Notes under the pieces: model-generated | Databases searched by the model: none | The model's input: the letters and a program-made list of their open reading frames with translations, nothing else | What the model was told of the DNA's origin: nothing | Shown here: positions 1,499 through 60,200 of the stretch, in pieces | How the letters are laid out: each line of letters starts with the position of its first letter | Position numbering within the stretch: the stretch's first letter is position 1 | NCBI RefSeq assembly: GCF_964275005.1 | Contig: NC_092698.1 | Coordinates: forward strand, 27,213,447 to 27,277,446 | Source: Diadema setosum | Taxonomy: Eukaryota; Echinodermata; Echinoidea; Diadematoida; Diadematidae | DNA length: 64,000 bases | Reading direction: 5' to 3' | Program-made: the position numbers and the translations under genes

Positions 1499-1855
1499 TT
1501 ACCGGTGATTTGGCTCAGTCGGTAGCGCCTCTGCCCCCAGATCCAAAATGACCTGGGTTCGATTCCCAAGTCTAACTGAGCAATGTTGTGTGTAATCATA
1601 CCGTCGCCATGTAAGAGGCAAAACACACACTGTCCCTCGGATATGACCAGGGAGGTGTTCCACCTCCCTGATATGACATAAAATGGAGGTCCCGTGTGTG
1701 AGAAGAGTCACAGCTCATGCACGTAAAAGATCCCGCTTCATTCATTCATCGCAAAGAGCAGGGTTCCTAAACCCGGTGAAGTGGTCCCGCCTCACATCCA
1801 ACTGGACCCCATGGAAGACCAGGTAGTGCAGCTGAATATAGGCTATCCATCCATC
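1499..1855 (+). mobile_element. tRNA-derived SINE
   Basis: The 5' part is tRNA-like. An A-box-like TGGCTCAGTCGG lies at about 1,511 and a B-box-like GGTTCGATTCC at about 1,556, at normal internal Pol III promoter spacing. A tRNA-unrelated body follows, including TGCACGTAAAAGATCCCG near 1,719, a motif seen in many invertebrate SINEs. The copy is interrupted at 1,648-1,669 by a 22-bp palindrome with a perfect 8-bp flanking duplication (separate entry). No long A-tail is visible, so the 3' limit is approximate. It is non-autonomous and would have depended on a LINE; no partner LINE is in the window. Confidence 0.75.
1640..1677. mobile_element. Micro-palindrome with perfect 8-bp flanking duplication (in SINE)
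   Basis: GATATGAC at 1,640-1,647 is repeated exactly at 1,670-1,677. Between them, 1,648-1,669 is a C followed by arms AGGGAGGTG and CACCTCCCT around a 3-base loop. Because it sits inside a SINE, the uninterrupted SINE body gives a natural empty site with a single GATATGAC. It is the clearest member of the set. Confidence 0.75.
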
Positions 1856-2231
1856 TTCTGAGATGGAAAAAAATGAGACGAACCTTATTCTGGCAACATC
1901 TCAAATATCAGAAGGAATTCAGTCACATTTTTGGCACAACAGTATTTCGCCGAGACGAATTAAAGATTTGGCCAGGATTATAAGTAGATTATGCCAAGGT
2001 TAATCTCTCTCCGAAATTTGTGTTCCTGACATAAGTCTACAGAGTGTACAGATATTCCATCAATTTTTGACTTGGACTTGAGACCACGAAATAACCACTG
2101 CAATCGAAACTCAGAATTTTAATCCTTCCAATCAACTTTCAATCTTTAGAAACTCTGTAAAATTTAGATGCATGAAAGGCATTCATCTTGAAAACAAGAA
2201 GCATTTTTGTTAATCTTTTATTTGTTTATTT
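1856..2231. other. Intergenic stretch, nothing recognised
   Basis: No open frame with splice context, no RNA signature and no repeat structure that I can recognise. Confidence 0.45.
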
Positions 2232-2620
2232 TTCATTTTTGTCTCGCCTGCGTAGCGGAAGCGAGACATCGACGTCACTATTCCTTCCTCATCGATGTCG
2301 GCGGTGGCGTCGTCAACAATTTGGTGTACTCTCAATAAAGTTCCACATCTTTGAGCTATGACCACCAAACTCACATGACAGGTACATAATCTAAAAATGC
2401 TGGTCAGGTTCGAATACTAAGTATAGGTTAAGTCCAACAAAGTCAAAGGTCAAAAGGCCAATGAACTTGTACTCACGTTGTCTCAGTATTGTGGTGTACT
2501 CTCAATAACTTTCCACAACTCTGACTTGTGGTCACGAAACTCGCACCACGACCACAGGTACATTACTTAAAAGATATTTGCCTGGTGTCAAGCTCACAGA
2601 GTGGGTTGTATGACTCGTGG
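2232..2620. repeat. Dispersed repeat starting GTCTCGCCTGCGTAGCGG
   Basis: It starts with an inverted pair (GTCTCGC and GCGAGAC) at 2,241-2,269. It holds an internal tandem duplication in which a block around GTGTACTCTCAATAA occurs near 2,322 and again near 2,493, each followed by TTCCAC and a CACAGGTACAT-like segment. It resembles the 'AAGGTCAAAGGTCA' class repeats at 46.4, 50.9 and 63.2 kb in style but is a different family. No protein-coding capacity. Confidence 0.5.
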
Positions 2621-3560
2621 ATGTCAGACTCGTAATGTGCATTTGTTAGTTTACTACAGTTCTATGCAACAGTTTAACATTTCACTGCTCGCATAAAATA
2701 TCTTGCATTTTATATAAATGCAATTTACTGACGCAAATTCTACTTCAAGAAAATTATTATGTGGAAGGAAACGGAATGAGGAGTTAAAGTTGAATTATTC
2801 GGTAAATGTCTGTACACATATGCACGTACACAAAAAAACAAACAAACAAACAAACAAAACCACACACGTGCATATTATAAAACTTGTGACTTCGTGAAGA
2901 TAATTTTATGATAGCGTAGTAGGATGGTAGGATGGAAGGGGAACAGTTTATGTTGCAGTCGAGGGTCGGGTTATGGTCTTCAGTTTGCATGTCATGGTGT
3001 AGGCTCGTGCAGCAGATAGAGAATAAAAGAAATCACCGAATAGGGTGTGATAAGAGAGTATGAACTAGCGGCCATCTCCTGACCGTTTTCAGCTTGGTAA
3101 ATGACCATGGTCTCTTCCCACCTCCCTGGATATACTGACCAAAATGGTATAGGCCTACAGCTTAGAATTCAGAGGTCATGCAGGTTCAGCATGGAGGAGG
3201 CGACATGTCAATTATCATTGCTGGTTGATTGATTGATTGTGGGTGTGTATGTGCAAGGAGCTTGATGTGTGTGTCTATGTGTGTGTGTGTGTGTGTGTGT
3301 GCGCGCGGGCTTGTTTAGAGTAACACATATACACCTGTGTTACCCTACTCTGTCATAATCCAGAACCTAGGTTTCATGTAAACAGTAAAGAGCGTCTCCC
3401 GAGGAATGAAACTAGAATAGATATTGAGCATTTTGGTAAGAGTACGGAGGTGAAACTCTCATTGCCAGAGTATTATAGGGAAGAGAGGGATGCATCCGCT
3501 CTTTCAAGTAGTAGTGGATGTTATTGTCCCGCGCGAGACGTTTTCATGCATAACAAGTGA
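2621..3560. other. Intergenic stretch with a GT microsatellite
   Basis: A GT dinucleotide tract lies at about 3,267-3,304. Near 3,106-3,127 there is a sequence ending CCACCTCCCTGG that resembles the micro-palindrome right arm found at 20.2 kb, but its flanking repeat is poor. No gene is supported. Confidence 0.5.
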
Positions 3561-3599
3561 TATGTCCAAGGAGTTATCACAGAACTGGATAACTCTTTT

Positions 3600-3637
3600 A
3601 TTCGTCGATGGAGCTGTCGTAGCTCCATGATTCGTCG
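3600..3637. mobile_element. Micro-palindrome with perfect 8-bp flanking duplication
   Basis: ATTCGTCG occurs at 3,600-3,607 and again at 3,630-3,637. The 22 bp between them have arms ATGGAGCT and AGCTCCAT around GTCGT, plus one extra unpaired G. On the other strand it reads as C plus palindrome, the same rule as the copy at 1,648. It begins CATGGAG on that strand, fitting the CANGGAG consensus. Confidence 0.72.
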
Positions 3638-4289
3638 TAGTGCATCTACCATCCTGCTCACGGACGACTCGTGTAGCTGGACAAAAAGCTAAAATATGGT
3701 ATGTGTGTGTGTGAGAAGAGTCGCGTAATGACAACAAGCAGGGAATGCCCACTCCACATGTGGTTCCGCGATTTTCCGCTGACCCTTTGTGACCTCTGCC
3801 GATTCCCACAGAGAATCCCGTAGCGATCACAGCACCGCGGAGGTTGCTTCAGTCACGTGACCTTACCCATTGCTTCCCTCAGTTTGACATACTGTATTCC
3901 TTCTCCCCCCCCCCCCCCCCAACCTTTCATGCGAGGCAGCAGTGGATTTCCATGGCCAAAAACTGAACTACACGTCCTACATACATAAATTACAATCTAC
4001 CTTTGACTCAAGTTCGAGATGTCAATTGAAAAATTACTCGTTGCATCGACTCCACGTATCTCGTGAATCATGAAATCTACCCATACCTTCCGCTTGATAT
4101 TCTGTAATGACTTTTCGTCAGTCTCAAACTAAACGGAAAGCTTATGAAATCCGACGAAGTAGAACGTCGCTAATTGTGATGACAATCATTATGCACCGTC
4201 TCCCACAGACAGTTGCTGCGTATCTCGTCATGTCACTCGCCACTGTGTTTCGTTTGACGTAGCACTGAAGTGGACGACATAAATAGGTG
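3638..4289. other. Intergenic stretch, nothing recognised
   Basis: A poly-C run lies at about 3,906-3,920. I see no exon, RNA gene or repeat structure. Confidence 0.45.
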
Positions 4290-4427
4290 GATGTGAGCAG
4301 GGAGGTGGAAGTTCTACCATGGAGCTACTATCTCTGTTAGTAGCTCCATGGTTCTACCATGGAGCTACGACAGCAGTTAGAGAGAGTCTCTTGTAGCTCC
4401 TGCATGGTTCCACCTCCGTGATGCGAG
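4290..4427. mobile_element. Micro-palindrome carrying two nested micro-palindromes
   Basis: The outer copy (4,298-4,419) starts CAGGGAGGTGGAA and ends TTCCACCTCCGT. It sits between GATGTGAG (4,290-4,297) and GATGCGAG (4,420-4,427), a 7/8 match. Inside are two palindromic units of the CATGGAG type, at 4,318-4,349 and 4,358-4,405. They are bracketed and separated by three 8-mers: AGTTCTAC (4,310-4,317), GGTTCTAC (4,350-4,357) and GGTTCCAC (4,406-4,413). This is what two successive insertions into the centre of the outer palindrome would leave. Confidence 0.65.
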
Positions 4428-4833
4428 GTTTGCCTTTTTGACTTGCAGGCAGGGGGAATCGAGAGAAACACTGACTTGAAATATATGCTTCTTTCAAATC
4501 AATGATATTTTACCATAGTAAATGACCGAAAATCAGTCTGTATCGTCTGGAGTGTAAATGTTCCGCAGGGACTACGTCTGGCTTCACGGAATCCCTATCC
4601 TGCGTAAGGAGGAAAACCGTTCAAGTTAAAAAGATAAAAAGGTAGACATAGAAAAGAAATCCTAGGAAGACTGATTTTTCTGTCTACCATCGTAGGCAAC
4701 CCACATAAGCCTACGCTTCATGAGACGCAGCAAGTCAGATGGTGGATTTGTCCTCTTCAGGCAGCAGAAATTCAAACTTGTCCGAGCTCTTTGGGCGTGT
4801 TGTTATTGTTTTTCTTGTCTTCATTTTTGTCGG
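4428..4833. other. Intergenic stretch, nothing recognised
   Basis: It lies between the nested micro-palindromes and the microRNA hairpin. No exon or repeat structure that I can support. Confidence 0.4.
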
Positions 4834-4835
4834 CA

Positions 4836-4930
4836 CGATTTGGGCGCTGAGATAGAGATGGCTGCAGCTGCCGTTGACCGTTGAGAAGTCGGCATTGCAC
4901 TCATCTCGGTCTGAGCGACTGGATCGCAGT
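4836..4930 (+). ncRNA. miR-25/92-type microRNA precursor (divergent member)
   Basis: The 3' arm at 4,893-4,914 begins CATTGCACTCATCTCGGTC. It keeps the miR-92/miR-25 seed ATTGCAC and differs from vertebrate miR-25 as I recall it at only about two positions. The 5' arm (about 4,836-4,872, with CGCTGAGATAGAGATG) pairs along almost its whole length with the 3' arm. Pairing extends about 15 bp below the mature region, as expected for a Drosha substrate, and leaves a loop of about 20 nt. The product would guide Argonaute to mRNAs with GTGCAAT sites. It lies 15.6 kb upstream of four same-strand family members. It could be expressed separately or be a distant cluster member. Pairing was judged by eye; no energy was computed. 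Confidence 0.72.
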
Positions 4931-5395
4931 CTACACGACGACATTCCTCAGTTGCACTGCGACCTTCTGACCTGGGTATTGCTTGTGTTCCCCGAGAGCA
5001 GTAGTCGTCAGTTCTCTCTGCAGCCTGTCATAAAATGAGCGGAGAGATGTCTGAACGGGCAATTTTCCATCACATCATGTCGAAAACGTGAGCAGGGAAG
5101 AATGGGGCTTTCCTTGCCAAACTTTTGAAGAACTATTCCACGGCAACGAAAATGTGCATGACAAGTTGCAAATCTATGTTATGGGGCGGAGTGATAGGCG
5201 GGTTATTGCGTGCTCGTGCTTGAATTGTTATTATTGATATGGCTTAGGCTTTCTGCATCCCCATTTGTCAGTTTCTCTTCATCAAACAAATTTCAAGGCT
5301 TGAAAGGCTAAACCTCACAATTGTTAATCCCAGATCCGACCATGATTCCGAAGGCGAGTTGGTGGAGTGGTGGTAGTCATGCTAGCTGCATGTAC
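4931..5395. other. Intergenic stretch, nothing recognised
   Basis: No coding or RNA signature seen between the microRNA hairpin and the next micro-palindrome. Confidence 0.4.
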
Positions 5396-5435
5396 TATGT
5401 AGGCAGGGAGGTAAGACTCCCCTCCCTCATGTAGG
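5396..5435. mobile_element. Micro-palindrome with 7/8 flanking duplication
   Basis: TATGTAGG (5,396-5,403) and CATGTAGG (5,428-5,435) flank a 24-bp unit that starts CAGGGAGGT and ends CCCTCCCT. The palindrome is imperfect near its centre. It follows the C-plus-palindrome rule. Confidence 0.6.
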
Positions 5436-5460
5436 TCCATGCTATGTGCTGTAGGTAAAC

Positions 5461-5487
5461 CAGGGACGTGGGAAGATCAACCTTCCT
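5461..5487. mobile_element. Candidate micro-palindrome, weak duplication
   Basis: The unit starts CAGGGACGTGG and ends CCTTCCT. The flanking GGTAAACC and GGTGAGCC match at only 6 of 8 positions, and only with a one-base shift from the usual frame. It is probably an older member. Confidence 0.35.
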
Positions 5488-5497
5488 GGTGAGCCAA

Positions 5498-5534
5498 GGA
5501 GGTACCAAGGAGCTTGCAAGCTCCTTGGAGGTAT
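5498..5534. mobile_element. Micro-palindrome with 7/8 flanking duplication
   Basis: GGAGGTAC (5,498-5,505) and GGAGGTAT (5,527-5,534) flank a 21-bp unit: C followed by the perfect palindrome AAGGAGCTTGCAAGCTCCTT. Downstream, GTGTACCTCC near 5,560-5,569 pairs with GGAGGTATAC at 5,527, so a larger hairpin may surround it. Confidence 0.65.
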
Positions 5535-5878
5535 ACGGAGCTCCCTAGGCGACTGGGGAGTGTACCTCCGCGATAGTTCCCCTCATTCTGTCGTAGAATT
5601 AGGAGGGGGGGGGGGGGGCTCCTACTATGTCCTTTCCCGCCAGTACTGGGACTCTTCGTGAGTATTATTCACTGAACACAAAATCGCACTCTATAGCATG
5701 AATGGATGCTGAGTGAAGAGCAAAGCTCACTATTATCTGCATTATAATTATCTCCTCACCCCATGTCAGCAGCGCTTGAGGCTACCCACCACACCATCCA
5801 TAAATCACATCTCCTTGTCTCTTCCTCTTCATCCCCCTCCCGTTTGAAGGCGACACAACATCTAGAGCCTAAATAATT

Positions 5879-5903
5879 ATGGAGCTACAACTTGTAGCTC
5901 CAT
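5879..5903. repeat. 25-bp palindrome of the same arm family
   Basis: A perfect palindrome with arms ATGGAGCTACAA and TTGTAGCTCCAT. The arm matches the CATGGAG class of micro-palindromes, but the flanks show no 8-bp repeat. Confidence 0.6.
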
Positions 5904-5968
5904 TTGCCATGAGAAAGTTGTTGCTCTGTAAACACTTCTAGAAGAAAAGAAAGTGCGCAGATATCTTT

Positions 5969-6001
5969 GTGCAGACCAGGGAGGTACCTCCCTGTGCAGA
6001 C
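5969..6001. mobile_element. Shortest micro-palindrome, perfect flanking duplication
   Basis: GTGCAGAC at 5,969-5,976 is repeated exactly at 5,994-6,001; the match runs to 9 bp if the next C is counted. The insert is only 17 bp, CAGGGAGGTACCTCCCT: a C plus a perfect 16-bp palindrome with no loop. It is too short to hold any subterminal binding site beyond the 8-bp arm. Confidence 0.75.
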
Positions 6002-6265: not shown

Positions 6266-8050
6266 CAGGTTTTTTTTTTTTTTTTATATGTCTTATGTGC
6301 CCTGTGGTCAAGGTGACAAAGTCCGTTTATGTCATGTACTCAAATCATATGCATGCTTTGTTGTCTTGACGTTACCACAAAGCTTGCCGGAGCCCTACCC
6401 AACCCAGGCCAATAGCTGATGAGTGCTGAGTGATTTCTTGTCTAATTTGAGGGAGCAGGTGAATAAAATGGTTCGTTACTAGGCTTTAGAAGAAACATCC
6501 ATGAATTGTAATACATTTAATTACAAAAACGGTTAATTTCCAATGACTCTCCGCATCGGGTCTTTCCTTTCTCTCTGAAAGTTCACTATATAGGGGCCTA
6601 ATGATACCAATTAAAAAACAATCTTCTTGGTTATTATCTGTTGGTTTGTATTTACAAGGCCTTTGGGAGCCATACGCATTGAAGTACTTAGTATGTCTAT
6701 ATACAAGTGTAGTAGAGAAAAACGGTCCAAGGTACGATTGATGATGAAAAAAAGAAAGAAAGAAAGAAGAGTAGAATATTGTGAAAGAACCCGGTTCGCA
6801 TCGTGACAAATATAATATTTCAGAAATTGAACTTTGCACCTGTCAGAAGCGTTGTTCGAAGTTCATGCTTTTCTGTGGTGGTCCTTTATCGGGCAATCTT
6901 TCCGTGCGGCGTACAAAGGAATTTCTTTGTGCTTGTATTTCAAATAAATGCAGTGCGGTACACAGCATCTAAGGATATGCAGACACCTTGAAAGCATCAT
7001 CCATATTTGATTAACATTAAATTTTTTCGTGACACTCTTCCTCTACATTTTTATTATAAATATAATATCCTGAGCTCTCTGAAGGTCTTTGTGTTGAGGC
7101 ATTTGAATACTGCGTGTGAAGCTGACACACTTTCCGATCTGGCAGGTGGAAGAGGAGTGAGTCGGTAGCCTCCCGTGTTCGGTCCCATCCAATACTAAGT
7201 GCATTTCATCTCCCTGTCCGAGCGATCACTGTCGGAAGCTAGTTTGTAAGCACAGTCGTAAAGGAGTCTGTGCTAGGCATCTTTCATAAGATGATTCCCT
7301 CCACTGTAGCTTCAATACACGACCTATGGGACACTGCCAGTGATGCATGTAGTCTTTTGGACGCAGACTACTTTACGACCGACAAGGGTTTGTGCCTGCA
7401 ACCTAGTCGAAAGTACGGGGTCTCTATCTGGCGCTAGTGTTGCAGATGTGAGTGTGTCTTTCTTTCTGTCTGTCCGTCTGTTTGTGTCTGTGTCTTGAGT
7501 ATCTGTGTCTGTATACCGTGCCTTTCAATCATATCGCCCCTATATACATGCCAAATTCGTGCATAATTCCGTTAATTCGTGACAAAGGTTACAGTGACAA
7601 CTGAAGGCTTATTTGGACCTTGCCTGATATAGCAAAAATTTGTGTGCAGTACGTCGTGCAGTCAGTCCTGACAATATGTATAGGTATCTAAGCCAGTTCA
7701 TAATTAGCTCATGTGTAGGCCTACATTGGTACTTATTGAGTTTTCCATTTCTCAATTGGTAACGCGCTTCACTCGTTTTCAAAGGACCATGATGAAAAGT
7801 CGTGAAATTTTAAGGTTTCGATATAGCCATCGCTTGATGAAAAGACTATAACAGTTCGTAACGTCTTGTATGAAATACGATAGGCCCTATAGAGAAGATA
7901 CAAAGAAAAGTCCTCAGATTTAAAGTCCTAGATTTTCTTTCCCTCCACTTTTACTGACGTATGTTCCGAGGGAAATACAGTGTATAATTCCCCCTGCTTT
8001 CTGAAAGAAATAAGTCAAGTGCTGTGCCATGTTAGGAAAGTAAACATAAT
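6266..8050. other. Intergenic stretch, nothing recognised
   Basis: It contains a poly-T run near 6,270. The open frames near 6,486-6,991 overlap on both strands and have no recognisable product. No RNA gene or transposon end is evident. Confidence 0.4.
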
Positions 8051-8760
8051 GGCCCGAATTCACGAAGGTGGTACAAATGAAACCATGGTTTAAAGGGTGT
8101 GTACAGTTCTGGTCGAGGTGAAGATTTCGCTTTTAACGTTTTGTGAGATATTCAAAAACCACTATATGAGATGTCAAAGAGCATGCAGTTCTAAGGGGTA
8201 TCAAAAGTTTATTCGATGAAAATCGGTTTTGAAATGGCTGAGATATCCAAAAACAAGGTGAAGCAAAGAGATACTAATAAAGTTGGGGCATGTCGCCTTT
8301 TATTATTAGCACTTTTTGGGATATCTCAGCCATTTGAAAACCAATTTTCATCAAATAAACGTTGAATCCTTCTTAAAATTACATGCTCCGTCATATTTCA
8401 TAAGAGGCTTTTCATTATCTCACTTAGGAATGTTCAAAACATGAATCCCTACCTCAACCAGTACTGTACAGTCCCTTTAAACCATGGACAAAAACAATGG
8501 AGCGCCAAGTGTCGCATGGAATATTTCCTTACGAAATCAGTCATTTCGTCGATGAAATGATTATTTTGTAACGAAATGACATTTTGTAACTAAATGAACA
8601 TGTCGTCCACGAAATGATAATTTTATTAACGAAACGGTCATTTTGTCGACGAAATGACCAATTTCGTAACAAAATATTCCGTGCGACACTTGGCGCTCCA
8701 TGGTTTTTGTCCATGGTTTAAACCATGGTTTCATTTGTACCACCTATGTGAATTCGGGCC
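8051..8760. mobile_element. Foldback MITE interrupted by a second MITE
   Basis: The outer element begins GGCCCGAATTCAC and ends GTGAATTCGGGCC. Long arms continue inward through ACAAATGAAACCATGG and, after the inner insertion, through CATGGACAAAAAC and GCGCCAAGTGTCGCATGG. AAT flanks both ends and could be a 3-bp target duplication. The centre is rich in ACGAAATGA-type blocks. The inner element occupies 8,094-8,476. Without it the outer arm reads through TTTAAA into CCATGG, so the insertion is the younger event. Confidence 0.75.
8094..8476. mobile_element. TTAA-flanked palindromic MITE, copy 1
   Basis: It runs from AGGGTGTGTACAG to CTGTACAGTCCCT, with TTAA directly on both sides (8,090-8,093 and 8,477-8,480). 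The 383 bp fold back almost end to end: TGAAATGGCTGAGATATCC on the left answers GGATATCTCAGCCATTT on the right. TTAA target sites are typical of piggyBac-type elements, but no transposase is present and the superfamily is inferred only. Three more copies lie at 12.7, 16.9 and 25.7 kb. Confidence 0.75.
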
Positions 8761-16000: not shown

Positions 16001-16912
16001 AGTGTCTGTTCGTGTTATAATTCACATCTGAACTCTGTAGCAGCAGAACAGATGTCTGATTCATAGAGTCATCTCAGTTGTTCCACTCTCAGAGTGACGT
16101 AATTTATCAGATTGGTTTTGTTTTGTATTATTTTATTGTTATTTGGCCGGCGCTTTCATCGGAACTGGTAGTAAGATGGGCGACCAACTCCTTGCTTTCC
16201 CGTTAACTGTGGCAACACTTCACTACTTCACCCGATGGTACACCGGGTCGGGTTGTATTCATGCCTAGGGCTAGATCACTGTAATATCAAGGAGTTGTCT
16301 GGTAACTCCTTGGTGCGACGAATCGGCGTTAGTTCCATCCAAGTCGTCTTTTCTTTTACTACTTTTAGCTGGGCCCATATCCGGGATACCTTGGCAGGTC
16401 TTCGTGTCGAGAGCTGTAAGGAGAAGTTCCCTTATCGATATTCTCATCGATGAGTTCATTGTGCTACATATTGAAGGCATACTTATGCCGATTTGGCATA
16501 GCGATAACTAACATCCGCTTTTAACCACTTGTTGAACAAGTTGTATTTCAACGGAAACGTGATCTCCAATAAAAAAAAAAAAAAAAAATGCCCCTTCCGC
16601 CAAACGTTTTTGAGGCTAGCTTGCGATTAATACCACCAATATACCTTTATGGCGGTTTATATTATAGCACTTGAATCGGTACGTCTACATCTAAACGCGA
16701 TGGTAACCTCATCCGCTGCGTTGGATGTAGTCTATAGTGCACGTGCAGTCCTGCTGGTCTCTCGGAAAGTGACAATGGCAATGGCAATCTGATCGTTAGG
16801 TTGCAGAAATAGTGTGTGGAAGGTTTCCGCCTGACATGATTGCTACTCTTTTTGTTTTAGACGAGTTTCTTAAAGAAAAGATGCGACGGAGGTACGGTAC
16901 TGTTTCGTTTAA
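13059..16912. other. Intergenic stretch with a possible DNA-transposon remnant
   Basis: Near 13,447-13,610 the phrases CAGTGGACTCCCGTTACACG and ATCGTTATAACGAGAGTGCA resemble the ends of Tigger/mariner-type MITEs, but I cannot close both ends. A palindrome near 16,288-16,311 (CAAGGAGTT...AACTCCTTG) has micro-palindrome arms but no flanking repeat. No gene supported. Confidence 0.4.
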
Positions 16913-20202: not shown

Positions 20203-20238
20203 CGTGTGACCAGTCTCTTTCCACCTCCCTGGTGTGAC
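20203..20238. mobile_element. Micro-palindrome relative with 7/8 flanking duplication
   Basis: CGTGTGAC (20,203-20,210) and GGTGTGAC (20,231-20,238) flank 20 bp ending CCACCTCCCT. The right arm is intact. The left side reads CAGTCTCTTT, so the palindrome is largely lost. A similar TCTCTTCCCACCTCCCTGG occurs near 3,110-3,129, which suggests a sub-family rather than random decay. Confidence 0.5.
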
Positions 20239-36418: not shown

Positions 36419-37875
36419 CGGTATTATTATCCGCGTGTTGGAATAAGAGCATGAAGACGATGAAGACAAACAAGTTGACATAATGCATTAGAATCCAACT
36501 TCATTTATTTGTAAACCAAATTTTCGACCCTTGCACGGATCTTCCTCAGGGTAACAGTAAACCAAATTTTCGACCCTTGCACGGATCTTCCTCAGGGTAA
36601 CATTAATGTTACCCTGAGGAAGATCCGTGCAAGGGTCGAAAATTTGGTTTACAAATAAATGAAGTTGGATTCTAATGCATTATGTCAACTTGTTTGTCTT
36701 CATCGTCTATATATATATATATATATTAGAAGAAAGAGTCTCAAGTACGCCATGGATCCAACGATTACAAAAGATTTTTATTACAAAATTTTTGGTCTGC
36801 CTCAGACCTTCGTCAGCGCAAAGACAACGCTCAAAAACAACCGAAAAACCTACGAAAAACCTCATTGGTAAAGAGCTCAATCTCAAAGAAACAAAAACAG
36901 AAAGCTAACCGCCCATGTGGCAAAAGCCGTTGCCAAATCTGTGCCCATATGCTCACCTCTGAAAAAGTAGATCTAACTCCTGGCTTCTCTGTCTCTACCC
37001 CTCACGCCACATGTGACACCCCAAATGTGGTTTACTGCATCTCATGCTCAAAATGCCCTAATGCGAAGTATATCGGGGAAACAGGTACTAAGTTCAGACT
37101 TCGTTTCAACAATCACAGAAATTCAATTCAGCACAAGTCATCACTACCAGTTGCCGAACATTTCAACTCAGGCAACCACTCAATTCGGGATCTGCAATTC
37201 TGTATCATCGGCACTAATTTCAAAGACAGAGAAGCCAGAAAATAAGCTGAAATGAAATTCATCATCCAAACCAGGTCTTTTGAAACAGGACTCAACAAGG
37301 ACCTTGGATGGTTAAGCAGTTTCTCTTTCTACAAGTGAAGAAATGAATCTCTAAGAATCTGAGACTAGACCAATATTATATGCATATTTTTCATTCTTTA
37401 CAAAAGGTAATGTTAAAATTTTATTATATTTCGCATTGACCACTTACCTTTTATGTTAAATATAATGTCTTGATTATCCGCAAATTTATCATACATTTGT
37501 ATTCTCATCATTACAGTAAACAGATGCTTCGATATTTGGTTATGATTATTATGAGCTTATTTTTTCATTTTTTTCTCCATTTGTAATTGATGCTTGATTG
37601 ATGCTTGATAGGCGTCTTTACATGCTTTTTTTCGATGTTTATCTACGAAAAAATGGAGTCACAAAAGTCAAATATTACATGGATGTATACATAAAGTAAT
37701 GTATTTATATAATATAGTATATATAGCATACATTGGCATGCATATAATATACACATACACTCGGAACTGTTGAGTTTGAGTTTAGTCTTCATTGAGATTT
37801 TAATTGAGTTAATGTTGAGATTTCATTATATTTGTATTGAACACTATTTTTTTAATATGATGTCTTGATTATCCG

Positions 37876-57200: not shown

Positions 57201-60200
57201 CAAAGGATGTTCAGATGACATTACTTCCACCTCGATCCCTGAAATTAGTTTATGGGCCAATATAAGAAACTTGAGATATAAAAAATATAAATGAATCATA
57301 TGATGTTCCATGGCTCTTTATTCATTTACCAGTCAGTTAGTTGAGTCATTTCTTAAGATTTGCTGTCTTTGTGAATATTTCCTTCATAAGAAACAATTCC
57401 TATGATCAAAATTTGAGGCAAGATGATGAGAATTTCAGCTGGTGAATGAGATAATTGTGGATTTTCAGTGAGAATATTGAATGTCATCTGATTCGTAATC
57501 AACAAGACATGGTTTGTGTAGAGTCTGATATCTCAGGAGGTTATTGTGTAATTCTGTCCTTTTTTGTTGTGTGTCTTGATTTTTGTTTGCAGGCACAAAC
57601 ATGAAGACAACCACCAGATTGCTCTTCACAGGGTGAGAAAAGAAATGCTTTTAAATGTATTTGGCTTCTTTAGTGAGAATATGTTTGATAGCAAACTGAT
57701 AAGATGATATGCTAAAAATAGATTACTGACACCATGTTTTAACTCTTCATGCAAAGTCCTTGAAATATGTAGGAATTTTCAGTTGAAACCCTCTTGTAAC
57801 GTGCTATAAGTACTTTGCCATTAATACGATGCTATACTATCTTGTAAGTTTCACGGTTATACTGATTATACGGAATTAGTCTGTCATATTGAAACTGTCG
57901 AGCATTACTACAGGCATTAGGGCAGAAAGGTAGCTTTGTCAGATTTGGTATGTTTACCTAGGAACATACCTTATGCAGATATCCCCATTTTTGGTTACCA
58001 ATATAATTAGCGATTCTGAGAGAGAAATTATGAGTGGAAAAGTGAGCAAAGAAAATGGGATTCCATCGGGATTCGAACCCGAGACCTCCGGATTGCTAGA
58101 CCGGTGCTCTACCGACTGAGCTATAGAAAGCCCTAGTGCAGTGTTCGTCCCAGAAACCCTTAATTCTCAATGCTCGGGTGGTCAGAAGCTATAGCAGTGT
58201 GTTTGTGTGTGACACACACGCACACACTTGAACCTGGCATAAACCCGAAGGATAATTCAACTTGGGGATAAATGCGAGGGATCACCGAAGTGATGCAGCT
58301 TTTTGAGTTTGTAACAAATAAAGACAGAATAAACTGACCAGAAAGAATATAAATTATTAGTGGAAAAGTGAGCAAAGAAAATGGGATTCCATCGGGATTC
58401 GAACCCGAGACCTCCGGATTGCTAGACCGGTGCTCTACCGACTGAGCTATAGAAAGCCCTAGTGCAGTGTTCGTCCCAGAAACCCTTAATTCTCAATGCT
58501 CGGGTGGTCAGAAGCTATAGCAGTGTGTTTGTGTGTGACACACACGCACACACTTGAACCTGGCATAAACCCGAAGGATAATTCAACTTGGGGATAAATG
58601 CGAGGGATCACCGAAGTGATGCAGCTTTTTGAGTTTGTAACAAATAAAGACAGAATAAACTGACCAGAAAGAATATAAATTATTAGTGGAAAAGTGAGCA
58701 AAGAAAATGGGATTCCATCGGGATTCGAACCCGAGACCTCCGGATTGCTAGACCGGTGCTCTACCGACTGAGCTATAGAAAGCCCTAGTGCAGTGTTCGT
58801 CCCAGAAACCCTTAATTCTCAATGCTCGGGTGGTCAGAAGCTATAGCAGTGTGTTTGTGTGTGACACACACGCACACACTTGAACCTGGCATAAACCCGA
58901 AGGATAATTCAACTTGGGGATAAATGCGAGGGATCACCGAAGTGATGCAGCTTTTTGAGTTTGTAACAAATAAAGACAGAATAAACTGACCAGAAAGAAT
59001 ATAAATTATTAGTGGAAAAGTGAGCAAAGAAAATGGGAGAAAAAAAAAAAAAAGAGAAATTATGCATAAAATTCAGTGAAAATGTGAGCGGTCAAACGAC
59101 CTACTCTTGCCTAAAATATCCTGATTCCAATGACGTCACAAATGGCCTGTGCTCTGTGCCAGCCAGCTGCGTACTCCAAAGGCCAAAGTGAGTGCATGCT
59201 TTCTACACAGTCTGTGCAGTGTAGCTTGATCCCAAACCATTGTTTGAAGGAAAATGCTAGAACAACATTTTTTATTTGAGTTTTGAATTGGAAACCAATG
59301 AAAAGGAGAAAGGAGGGCACGATACTGAGTCATAATCCTCTATGAATTTCAAACATTGATGATGGATATTTAGGTGATTTTGACCCCAAAGCAGTCGAGA
59401 TGCGGCTGCTGATGCCGTTTATTCAGCTGGAGTGCTGGCTGCATAGTTTTGTGAAAGGGGGGTGGGCCAAAACAGCTGCATGATGGTGATGATGATAAAA
59501 ATGAACTGCTCACAAGAAGGAATGAAGATATATCTTGGCTTGACCCTAATATATTACAGTGGGAATCGGTATGAATGGCATTCTTATCAACATTTGCATT
59601 AATTGTAGTTTCCCCTGCTTTTACACCCATTGCACTGACTGCATACTGTGTACTAGACCTAGACTTTGCATTGCAAGCTACATGATGTATTTTGCACGCA
59701 TCAGTGCGACTCACTAGCACACTGCCTTTGCTGGCCGCTTGAACAGCCGCTGCCACAAGGTTGGCCAACTGGACAATACACACACTCATGTACACACATG
59801 CACCTACCAGACTGCTGTCACACAACTGTAATTTGAGCAGGAGCTTGCCTCACTGTCATTGGCTGTCATCACTTTAAGGACGTATTTGAAGCTGTTTTAC
59901 AAAAATAAAGAGTTTTAAAATGTTAAGGACAGTTAGTATTAATTTCTGATTCAGATTTTTTTTTCTAATTTCAGACTGCAAGCAGCGTACGCCGCAAAGC
60001 TCGCGAAGAGTGACAGTGAGTTGTTTTGAGCTACAACATGCATTTGTTATCAATATCAACAGATCCTAGCAACTGAAGCGGTTCATATTTTCATGAGTGT
60101 TTGAAAATACGCTATGTAGTATTGTGATTTTGGTGCCATTTGGTTAAATAGAATTTTAGAAATCTACATGGACATTAGCACCGATTCACATACACGTTCG

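Follow-up and report, generated by a model that had tools for sequence, protein, structure and literature searches.

According to excerpts of two reports (PMC7776569, PMC10983969), P transposase makes staggered cuts: one strand is cleaved at the element's 3' end, the other 17 bp within the terminal inverted repeat (TIR). The first report terms this stagger unusual and atypically long. The excision junctions of Drosophila P elements set out in Tables 2 and 3 of PMC2895639 run from one copy of the target duplication through up to 17 nt of TIR, a microhomology or an insert, and TIR sequence again to the second copy of the duplication. Galileo, a Drosophila member of the P superfamily, is described in an excerpt of PMC4168063 as having duplications of 7 bp, a few of them 8 bp, with the consensus GTANTAC. 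Here we describe short inserts between direct repeats, many of them palindromic, in a 64,000-nt stretch of the genome of the sea urchin Diadema setosum (NC_092698.1:27213447-27277446; the whole of this stretch is referred to as the window) and across the assembly to which it belongs (912,680,840 bases, 102 contigs). We conclude that these inserts are the excision scars of a DNA transposon, a reading to which we attach a probability of about 0.93, and that a P-superfamily transposase probably made them. The initial annotation of the window, made from the sequence alone, had regarded the inserts as products of DNA transposition and had thought aberrant products worth considering, and both suggestions were apt.

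That annotation had also stated that no element of this form was known; the tabulated Drosophila P excision junctions (PMC2895639, Tables 2 and 3) have the same form. In both species the duplication stands on both sides, the TIRs meet head-to-head and extend up to a fixed length, and the joins comprise short microhomologies, blunt joins and small inserts, which in the Drosophila tables are sometimes templated. The differences are that the TIR limit is 18 or 20 nt here rather than 17, that the duplication is 7 bp rather than 8, and that several TIR families and thousands of fixed scars occur in one genome, with the parents not found, whereas the Drosophila footprints in those tables are induced events. 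Galileo, as presented in the excerpt cited, is similar in its 7-bp duplications with a few of 8 bp and in its target consensus, the motif extending outside the duplication as a palindrome, but it is described from long elements whereas we observe scars, and the comparison covers duplication length and target consensus (PMC4168063). Miniature inverted-repeat transposable elements (MITEs) are likewise short, non-coding and numerous, with inverted ends and a target duplication; the present inserts differ in not being copies of one sequence, in often lacking one end and in measuring 17-48 bp at the sampled loci.

Results

Short inserts with arms of the form CANGGAG were seen between direct repeats at 1,640, 3,600, 4,290-4,420, 5,396, 5,498, 5,969 and 20,203 in the window. 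The 65 arm occurrences on its two strands gave nine strand-hits, corresponding to six loci, with an exact flush 7-bp repeat, compared with 2, 0, 0, 1, 0 and 0 exact matches for the same arms when the 7-mer was read at six displaced offsets, which served as the control for flanking-repeat counts. Genome-wide counts were made on the forward strand with the reversed pattern as control, and are counts of palindromes, not of proven scars, that include copies borne by larger repeats. The pattern CAGGGAGGTN{1,30}ACCTCCCTG (CAGGGAGGT-armed) matched 3,428 palindromes against 1 in the control, CATGGAGCTN{0,30}AGCTCCATG (CATGGAGCT-armed) matched 958 against 0, and CAGGGAGGTACCTCCCT matched 193 times against 0, all four fetched places of this last pattern lying in one common larger repeat. 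A genome-wide excess over controls had been proposed as a check on the initial annotation, and it is present; the short repeat-flanked palindromes are real and occur genome-wide. Where three arm classes had been recognized, more were found, namely CAGGGAGGTGGG, CAGGGAGGTGGA, CAGGGAGGTGAGAC, CATGGAGCTAC with T, C or A as the next base, CATGGACCT and CAAGGAG. A search that presupposed no arm sequence (palindromes of 14-129 bp, arms of up to 9 bp, at most one mismatch) covered the window and a 200-kb random sample (264 kb together; L009-L028). It returned 568 palindromes starting with CA, seven of which had an exact flush 7-bp repeat (three in the window, four in the random sample), and all seven have arms CA[G/T]GGA[G/C]; nine exact cases had other starts, two being copies of one other repeat and seven lying in locally repetitive sequence. 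The 200-kb sample gave 11 strand-hits against 4, 3, 2, 1, 1 and 1 at the displaced offsets, so that a density estimate drawn from it would be rough.

The insert is symmetric, CANGGA...TCCNTG, and lies between the copies of a 7-bp target duplication. Of 41 palindromes at 40 loci, 24 have the exact 7-mer match at shift 0, one has it at +1 and one at +7; the remaining shifts from -12 to +12 gave no match. The sample was non-random, with 20 of about 50 listed forward places taken from the 3,428 class and 20 of about 50 listed from the 958 class, all on one contig (C1); the flanks of L054 and L066 are alike and represent one repeat. The +1 case, L045, has an 8-bp duplication, as does L001. In the +7 case, L035, the scar lies between 14-bp direct repeats, ATTTAACTCTTAAC, of double the usual length. 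An eighth matching base outside the duplication is usually a chance match: at 62 loci with an exact 7-bp repeat the base before the left copy is G in 20 and the base after the right copy is C in 23. The 8-bp repeats reported initially (8/8 at 1,640, 3,600 and 5,969; 7/8 at 5,396 and 5,498) were confirmed as read, and the direct repeats and CANGGAG arms of the proposed insertion rule stand; its asymmetric part, an 8-bp repeat followed by C, was dropped on the shift and flanking-base counts in favour of a symmetric insert with a 7-bp duplication. Symmetrized over 64 entries, the target logo reads Tnn[GTnnnAC]nnA, in which the T of position 2 and the A of position 6 each reach 80%. After merging to 62 loci, among which L035 is still counted twice, the two tandem copies of L090 stand separately and L017 is doubtful, 47 targets have T at position 2, 53 have A at position 6 and 12 have the complete GTnnnAC.

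The arms end at fixed lengths. In 89 CAGGGAGGTGGAAAGAGA loci (from 100 listed matches, one orientation each, with one of three tandem copies on C13 kept), 50 pass directly from position 18 into the opposite arm, six are exactly 18+18, and the first inserted base after position 18 is mixed in the others (A 13, C 11, T 11, G 4). One 18-nt arm, at L080, continues beyond the usual limit; L093, examined on that account, showed no second end. In the CATGGAGCTACTAAC family the arms never extend beyond 20 nt, either in a set of 82 loci (listed matches, one orientation each, one longer overlapping match excluded) or in 20 CATGGAGCTACTAACAGAG loci drawn from 105 genomic places, seven of which were picked because they were absent from the listing of two-armed inserts. 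Exact 7-bp repeats flank 15 of these 20 and 6/7 repeats flank three, and the arm pairs include 20+20 (L107, one mismatch), 20+4 (L100), 20+2 (L096) and 20+0 (L099, 6/7 repeat). One-armed inserts consist of 18 or 20 nt of one end and 0-4 nt of the other between both copies of the duplication; those between exact 7-bp repeats are L096, L100, L110 and window 20211-20231 (18+3). At the last of these the initial annotation was right in placing an insert between repeats, and the palindrome that it described is instead this one-armed form.

The junctions are varied. The 82-locus set comprises 21 blunt joins, eight with 1-nt and 25 with 2-nt microhomology, and 28 with inserts of 1-25 nt, while the 89 CAGGGAGGTGGAAAGAGA loci divide into 32 blunt joins, 18 with microhomology and 39 with small inserts. 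Microhomologies of 2 nt account for 25 of the 54 insert-free joins (46%) in the first set against 12% expected. Some junctions recur, one sequence being found at 10 of the 82 loci, and several of the recurrent ones coincide with 2-nt microhomologies. Most inserts are nevertheless individual: among 49 of the 50 listed loci in each of two arm classes, 47 and 41 inserts are distinct, which bears out the earlier statement that they are not copies of one sequence. Size falls off sharply, with 3,428 palindromes at gap lengths of 1-30 and 159 at 31-60; of 49 listed inserts 46 do not exceed 37 bp, the sampled loci span 17-48 bp and longer inserts are rare. Among 50 listed loci with gaps of 31-60, one 64-70-bp sequence accounts in variant forms for 28 (counted manually), and nested scars for several more. 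This 64-70-bp sequence has CAGGGAGGTGA ends and an inner CAGGGAGGTGAGAC motif, is present in many near-identical copies (e.g. C1:46232365-46232431) and probably represents nested scars borne by a larger repeat. In a further sample of 20 regions around an 18-mer that occurs 724 times, at least eight of the loci hold copies of a single 48-bp insert carried along by a repeat.

Empty sites, proposed earlier as a second check, were examined at two places, and neither retains the palindrome. The insert at 1,640 lies in a repeat resembling a short interspersed nuclear element (SINE), whose joined flanks without the insert occur 1,097 + 1,102 times with up to three mismatches, five of them exact, against 0 for the reversed control. 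At L090 two repeat units contain the insert, and the insert-free form of the unit carries a short repeat expansion and is thus a close, not an exact, empty site.

The genome contains 52 matches to the RNase H domain of P transposase. Four open reading frames of the P/THAP9 type were scanned, three of which have all four P transposase domains and the fourth three, one being below the cut-off; when one open reading frame was compared with solved structures, it matched Drosophila P transposase (E 7.4e-16). Relatives of the L115 locus, retrieved with a DNA query, join query positions 1-1,351 to 6,310-6,601, and this internal join indicates that non-autonomous deletion copies exist, at C14:542710-544443, C17:3832135-3833853 and C24:4055193-4056930 among other places; the ends of L115 itself lie beyond the fetched piece. 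Repeats about 290 bp apart were noted on the non-coding side of this P transposase locus (L115 120-1,508). Inspection of 33 of the 105 CATGGAGCTACTAACAGAG places revealed no parent: 13 are two-armed inserts and the other 20 comprise 18 scars and two unclear cases.

Features of the window

The scars and possible scars of the window are collected in Table 1. The first 6 kb contain eight of the nine counted scars, some of them overlapping or nested. Insertion hot spots are a known trait of P elements. The initial annotation had held that the nested group at 4,290 adds further inserts, and this is so, with an outer scar and two nested ones. The outer scar's own junction would be GTTCCAC, consistent with GTnnnAC, and since two further inserts share copies of GTTC[T/C]AC this spot was probably hit three times.

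Table 1. Scars, nested inserts and possible old scars in the window
Feature	Coordinates	Strand	Flanking repeats and remarks
Scar CAGGGAGGTGTTCCACCTCCCTG, 1648-1670	1641..1677	+	ATATGAC copies 7/7; within SINE-like repeat
Scar 3607-3629, minus strand CATGGAGCTACGACAGCTCCATC	3600..3636	-	ATTCGTC copies 7/7; final base not the expected G
Outer scar of nested group; left arm CAGGGAGGTGGAA from 4298, right arm TTCCACCTCCGTG to 4420	4291..4427	+	ATGTGAG / ATGCGAG 6/7
Nested scar 4318-4350, 33 bp, minus strand CATGGAGCTACTAACAGAGATAGTAGCTCCATG	4311..4357	+	GTTCTAC copies 7/7
Second nested insert 4358-4406, 49 bp, imperfect	4351..4413	+	GTTCTAC / GTTCCAC 6/7; one repeat copy in common with neighbour
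Scar 5404-5428	5397..5435	+	ATGTAGG copies 7/7; final base C, not G
Scar CAAGGAGCTTGCAAGCTCCTTG, 5506-5527	5499..5534	+	GAGGTAC / GAGGTAT 6/7
Palindrome of CATGGAGCT class, ends altered	5879..5903	.	No flanking repeat; possible old scar
Scar CAGGGAGGTACCTCCCTG, 5977-5994	5970..6001	+	TGCAGAC copies 7/7
Palindrome CAAGGAGTTGTCTGGTAACTCCTTG	16288..16312	.	No flanking repeat; possible old scar
One-armed scar 20211-20231: CAGGGAGGTGGAAAGAGA (18 nt, one end) + CTG	20204..20238	-	GTCACAC copies 7/7

Several other repeats were noticed. A 233-236-bp repeat (window 8,483-8,715; L010 633-868) with CATGGACAAAAAC ends and an apparent 8-bp duplication, GTTTAAAC, was considered as a P-like MITE and rejected, its inverted repeat continuing through the supposed duplication; the element is also present near window 55,285 on the minus strand, with CATGGACAAAAAC near its ends and no clear duplication. 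A 98-bp repeat with inverted ends around TGGCTGAGATATCC has TTTGAAA on both sides in both copies (window 8,235-8,332; L010 5,592-5,689). Positions 36,482-36,681 of the window hold a long palindrome of inverted 46-bp repeats between AATGCATT copies (8/8), and positions 58,025-59,038 hold about three copies of a 326-bp tandem unit with 99% identity and a tRNA-Ala(AGC) gene in each. At L028 7,229 a direct repeat of GACCGACA (8/8) surrounds AAGTGCCGTGTGACGGCACTG, a short palindrome with unrelated arms that is perhaps a scar of another family, or due to chance.

Discussion

Our current working hypothesis is that an element with CA...TG ends would insert at a GTnnnAC-like target, duplicating 7 bp and sometimes 8 bp, and that its transposase would later excise it with a wide stagger, one strand being cut at the element boundary and the other 18 nt (CAGGGAGGTGG families) or 20 nt (CATGGAGCTACTAAC family) inside the TIR. 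A 3' overhang of TIR sequence would then stay on each flank, and end joining would trim, anneal, fill and ligate the two overhangs. The expected product has 0 to 20 nt of each TIR, with or without filler between them, flanked by the two copies of the duplication; joins of similar length would look palindromic and unequal joins one-armed. The excision-scar reading has direct evidence behind it, and we favour the P superfamily as the source of the transposase because the size of the stagger, the duplication, the target and the presence of transposases in the genome agree.

A number of observations weigh against this reading. Sixteen of the 41 palindromes lack an exact 7-bp repeat flush with the insert, whether at shift 0 or at +1, and ten of these 16 match at 4-6 of 7 positions. 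When one mismatch in the 7-mer is allowed in the window there are 16 strand-hits against 9, 3, 4, 5, 7 and 10 at the displaced offsets, so that the imperfect window sites are individually weak, and the palindromes at 5,879-5,903 and 16,289-16,311 lack a flanking repeat. Two of the 20 CATGGAGCTACTAACAGAG loci have no second repeat, L097 running into tRNA/SINE-like and L098 into coding-like sequence. If each junction is counted once, 2-nt microhomologies make up five of 20 insert-free joins, a weaker enrichment, and the recurrent junctions may be repeat copies. The arm limits are 18 and 20 nt as against 17 in Drosophila, and the 20-nt limit of CATGGAGCTACTAACAGAGA is one that we infer, the parent's 21st base not being at hand. 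We found no full-length element bearing these TIRs; by eye, no inverted pair 0.1-10 kb apart was seen in the 100 listed of the 105 places of the CATGGAGCTACTAACAGAG 19-mer, and the ends of six P-transposase loci (L069-L072, L115 and L116) were not found within the fetched pieces.

That the parent was not found, together with limits of 18 and 20 nt unlike 17, would also suit scars made by a transposase of another superfamily that likewise cuts far inside the element ends on one strand. We regard such an origin as unlikely. We know of no group other than P whose stagger is so wide, and the presence in the genome of transposases of the P superfamily, the only one for which a search was made, also argues against it; the 7-bp GTnnnAC duplication and CA ends, moreover, fit P-superfamily members as described in the excerpt of PMC4168063. 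The high number of inserts, their target duplications, their palindromic form and the recurrence of some junctions (one at 10 of 82 loci) could alternatively reflect mobile ultra-short MITEs, that is palindromes of 17-48 bp transposing as units, which is close to the transposon-like unit at micro scale that was envisaged initially. The one-armed inserts, without a second end at L096, L100, L110 and window 20211-20231, contradict this, because transposition as a unit requires two ends, and on that ground the palindromic micro-transposon was dropped; most inserts also differ from one another, and several of the recurrent junctions fall at 2-nt microhomologies. We consider ultra-short MITEs very improbable.

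Internal deletion derivatives that arise when gap repair of a longer element is interrupted are known for P elements, and the L115 family does include internally deleted copies. The endpoints of such deletions would be expected anywhere in the element and not at 18 or 20 nt, a remnant of 0-4 nt of one end would not be expected, and the sharp fall in size (3,428 against 159) is not a continuous range from 40 bp to kilobases of the kind that would support deletion; this explanation is hard to credit for the inserts. The CAGGG...CCCTG form recalls some hAT ends, and a hAT-like origin had been suggested, but end-to-end joining of hAT termini is contradicted by the duplication (7 bp in 24 and 8 bp in one of 41; no search aimed at hAT transposases was made) and by the one-armed scars, and was dropped for these reasons. 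Nor do we know of hAT excision leaving 18-20 nt of a transposon end behind. Palindromes arising by chance or by template switching may be set aside together with hAT ends as having next to no likelihood, the reversed-pattern controls (0-1 matches) excluding chance.

P-element footprints have so far been known mostly from laboratory crosses and plasmid assays, and here thousands of probable ones lie in one assembly. The kind of footprint is known from Drosophila experiments; as far as our searches of the open-licence literature show, its scale here, the presence of several TIR families, limits of 18 and 20 nt and parents that were not found are apparently undescribed, and no genome-wide survey of P footprints and no report of excision footprints in sea urchins was found there. 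One tentative possibility, which we put forward with less than even confidence, is that a P-like lineage survives in D. setosum mainly as scars, thousands of copies having been excised and end-joined, at some places repeatedly, until intact copies became rare or extinct; the scars would then be a natural archive of thousands of germline break-repair outcomes, with P-type staggers of 18 and 20 nt as opposed to 17. Repeat annotation built on a single consensus could miss such scars, because most copies differ. From the scars past insertions can be counted even for families whose intact copies were not found, and the position of the transposase cut can be read from sequence alone. Most of them seem to be independent germline outcomes of break repair whose starting ends are known, and they let end joining, with its microhomology, trimming and filler, be measured over evolutionary time in a non-model animal.

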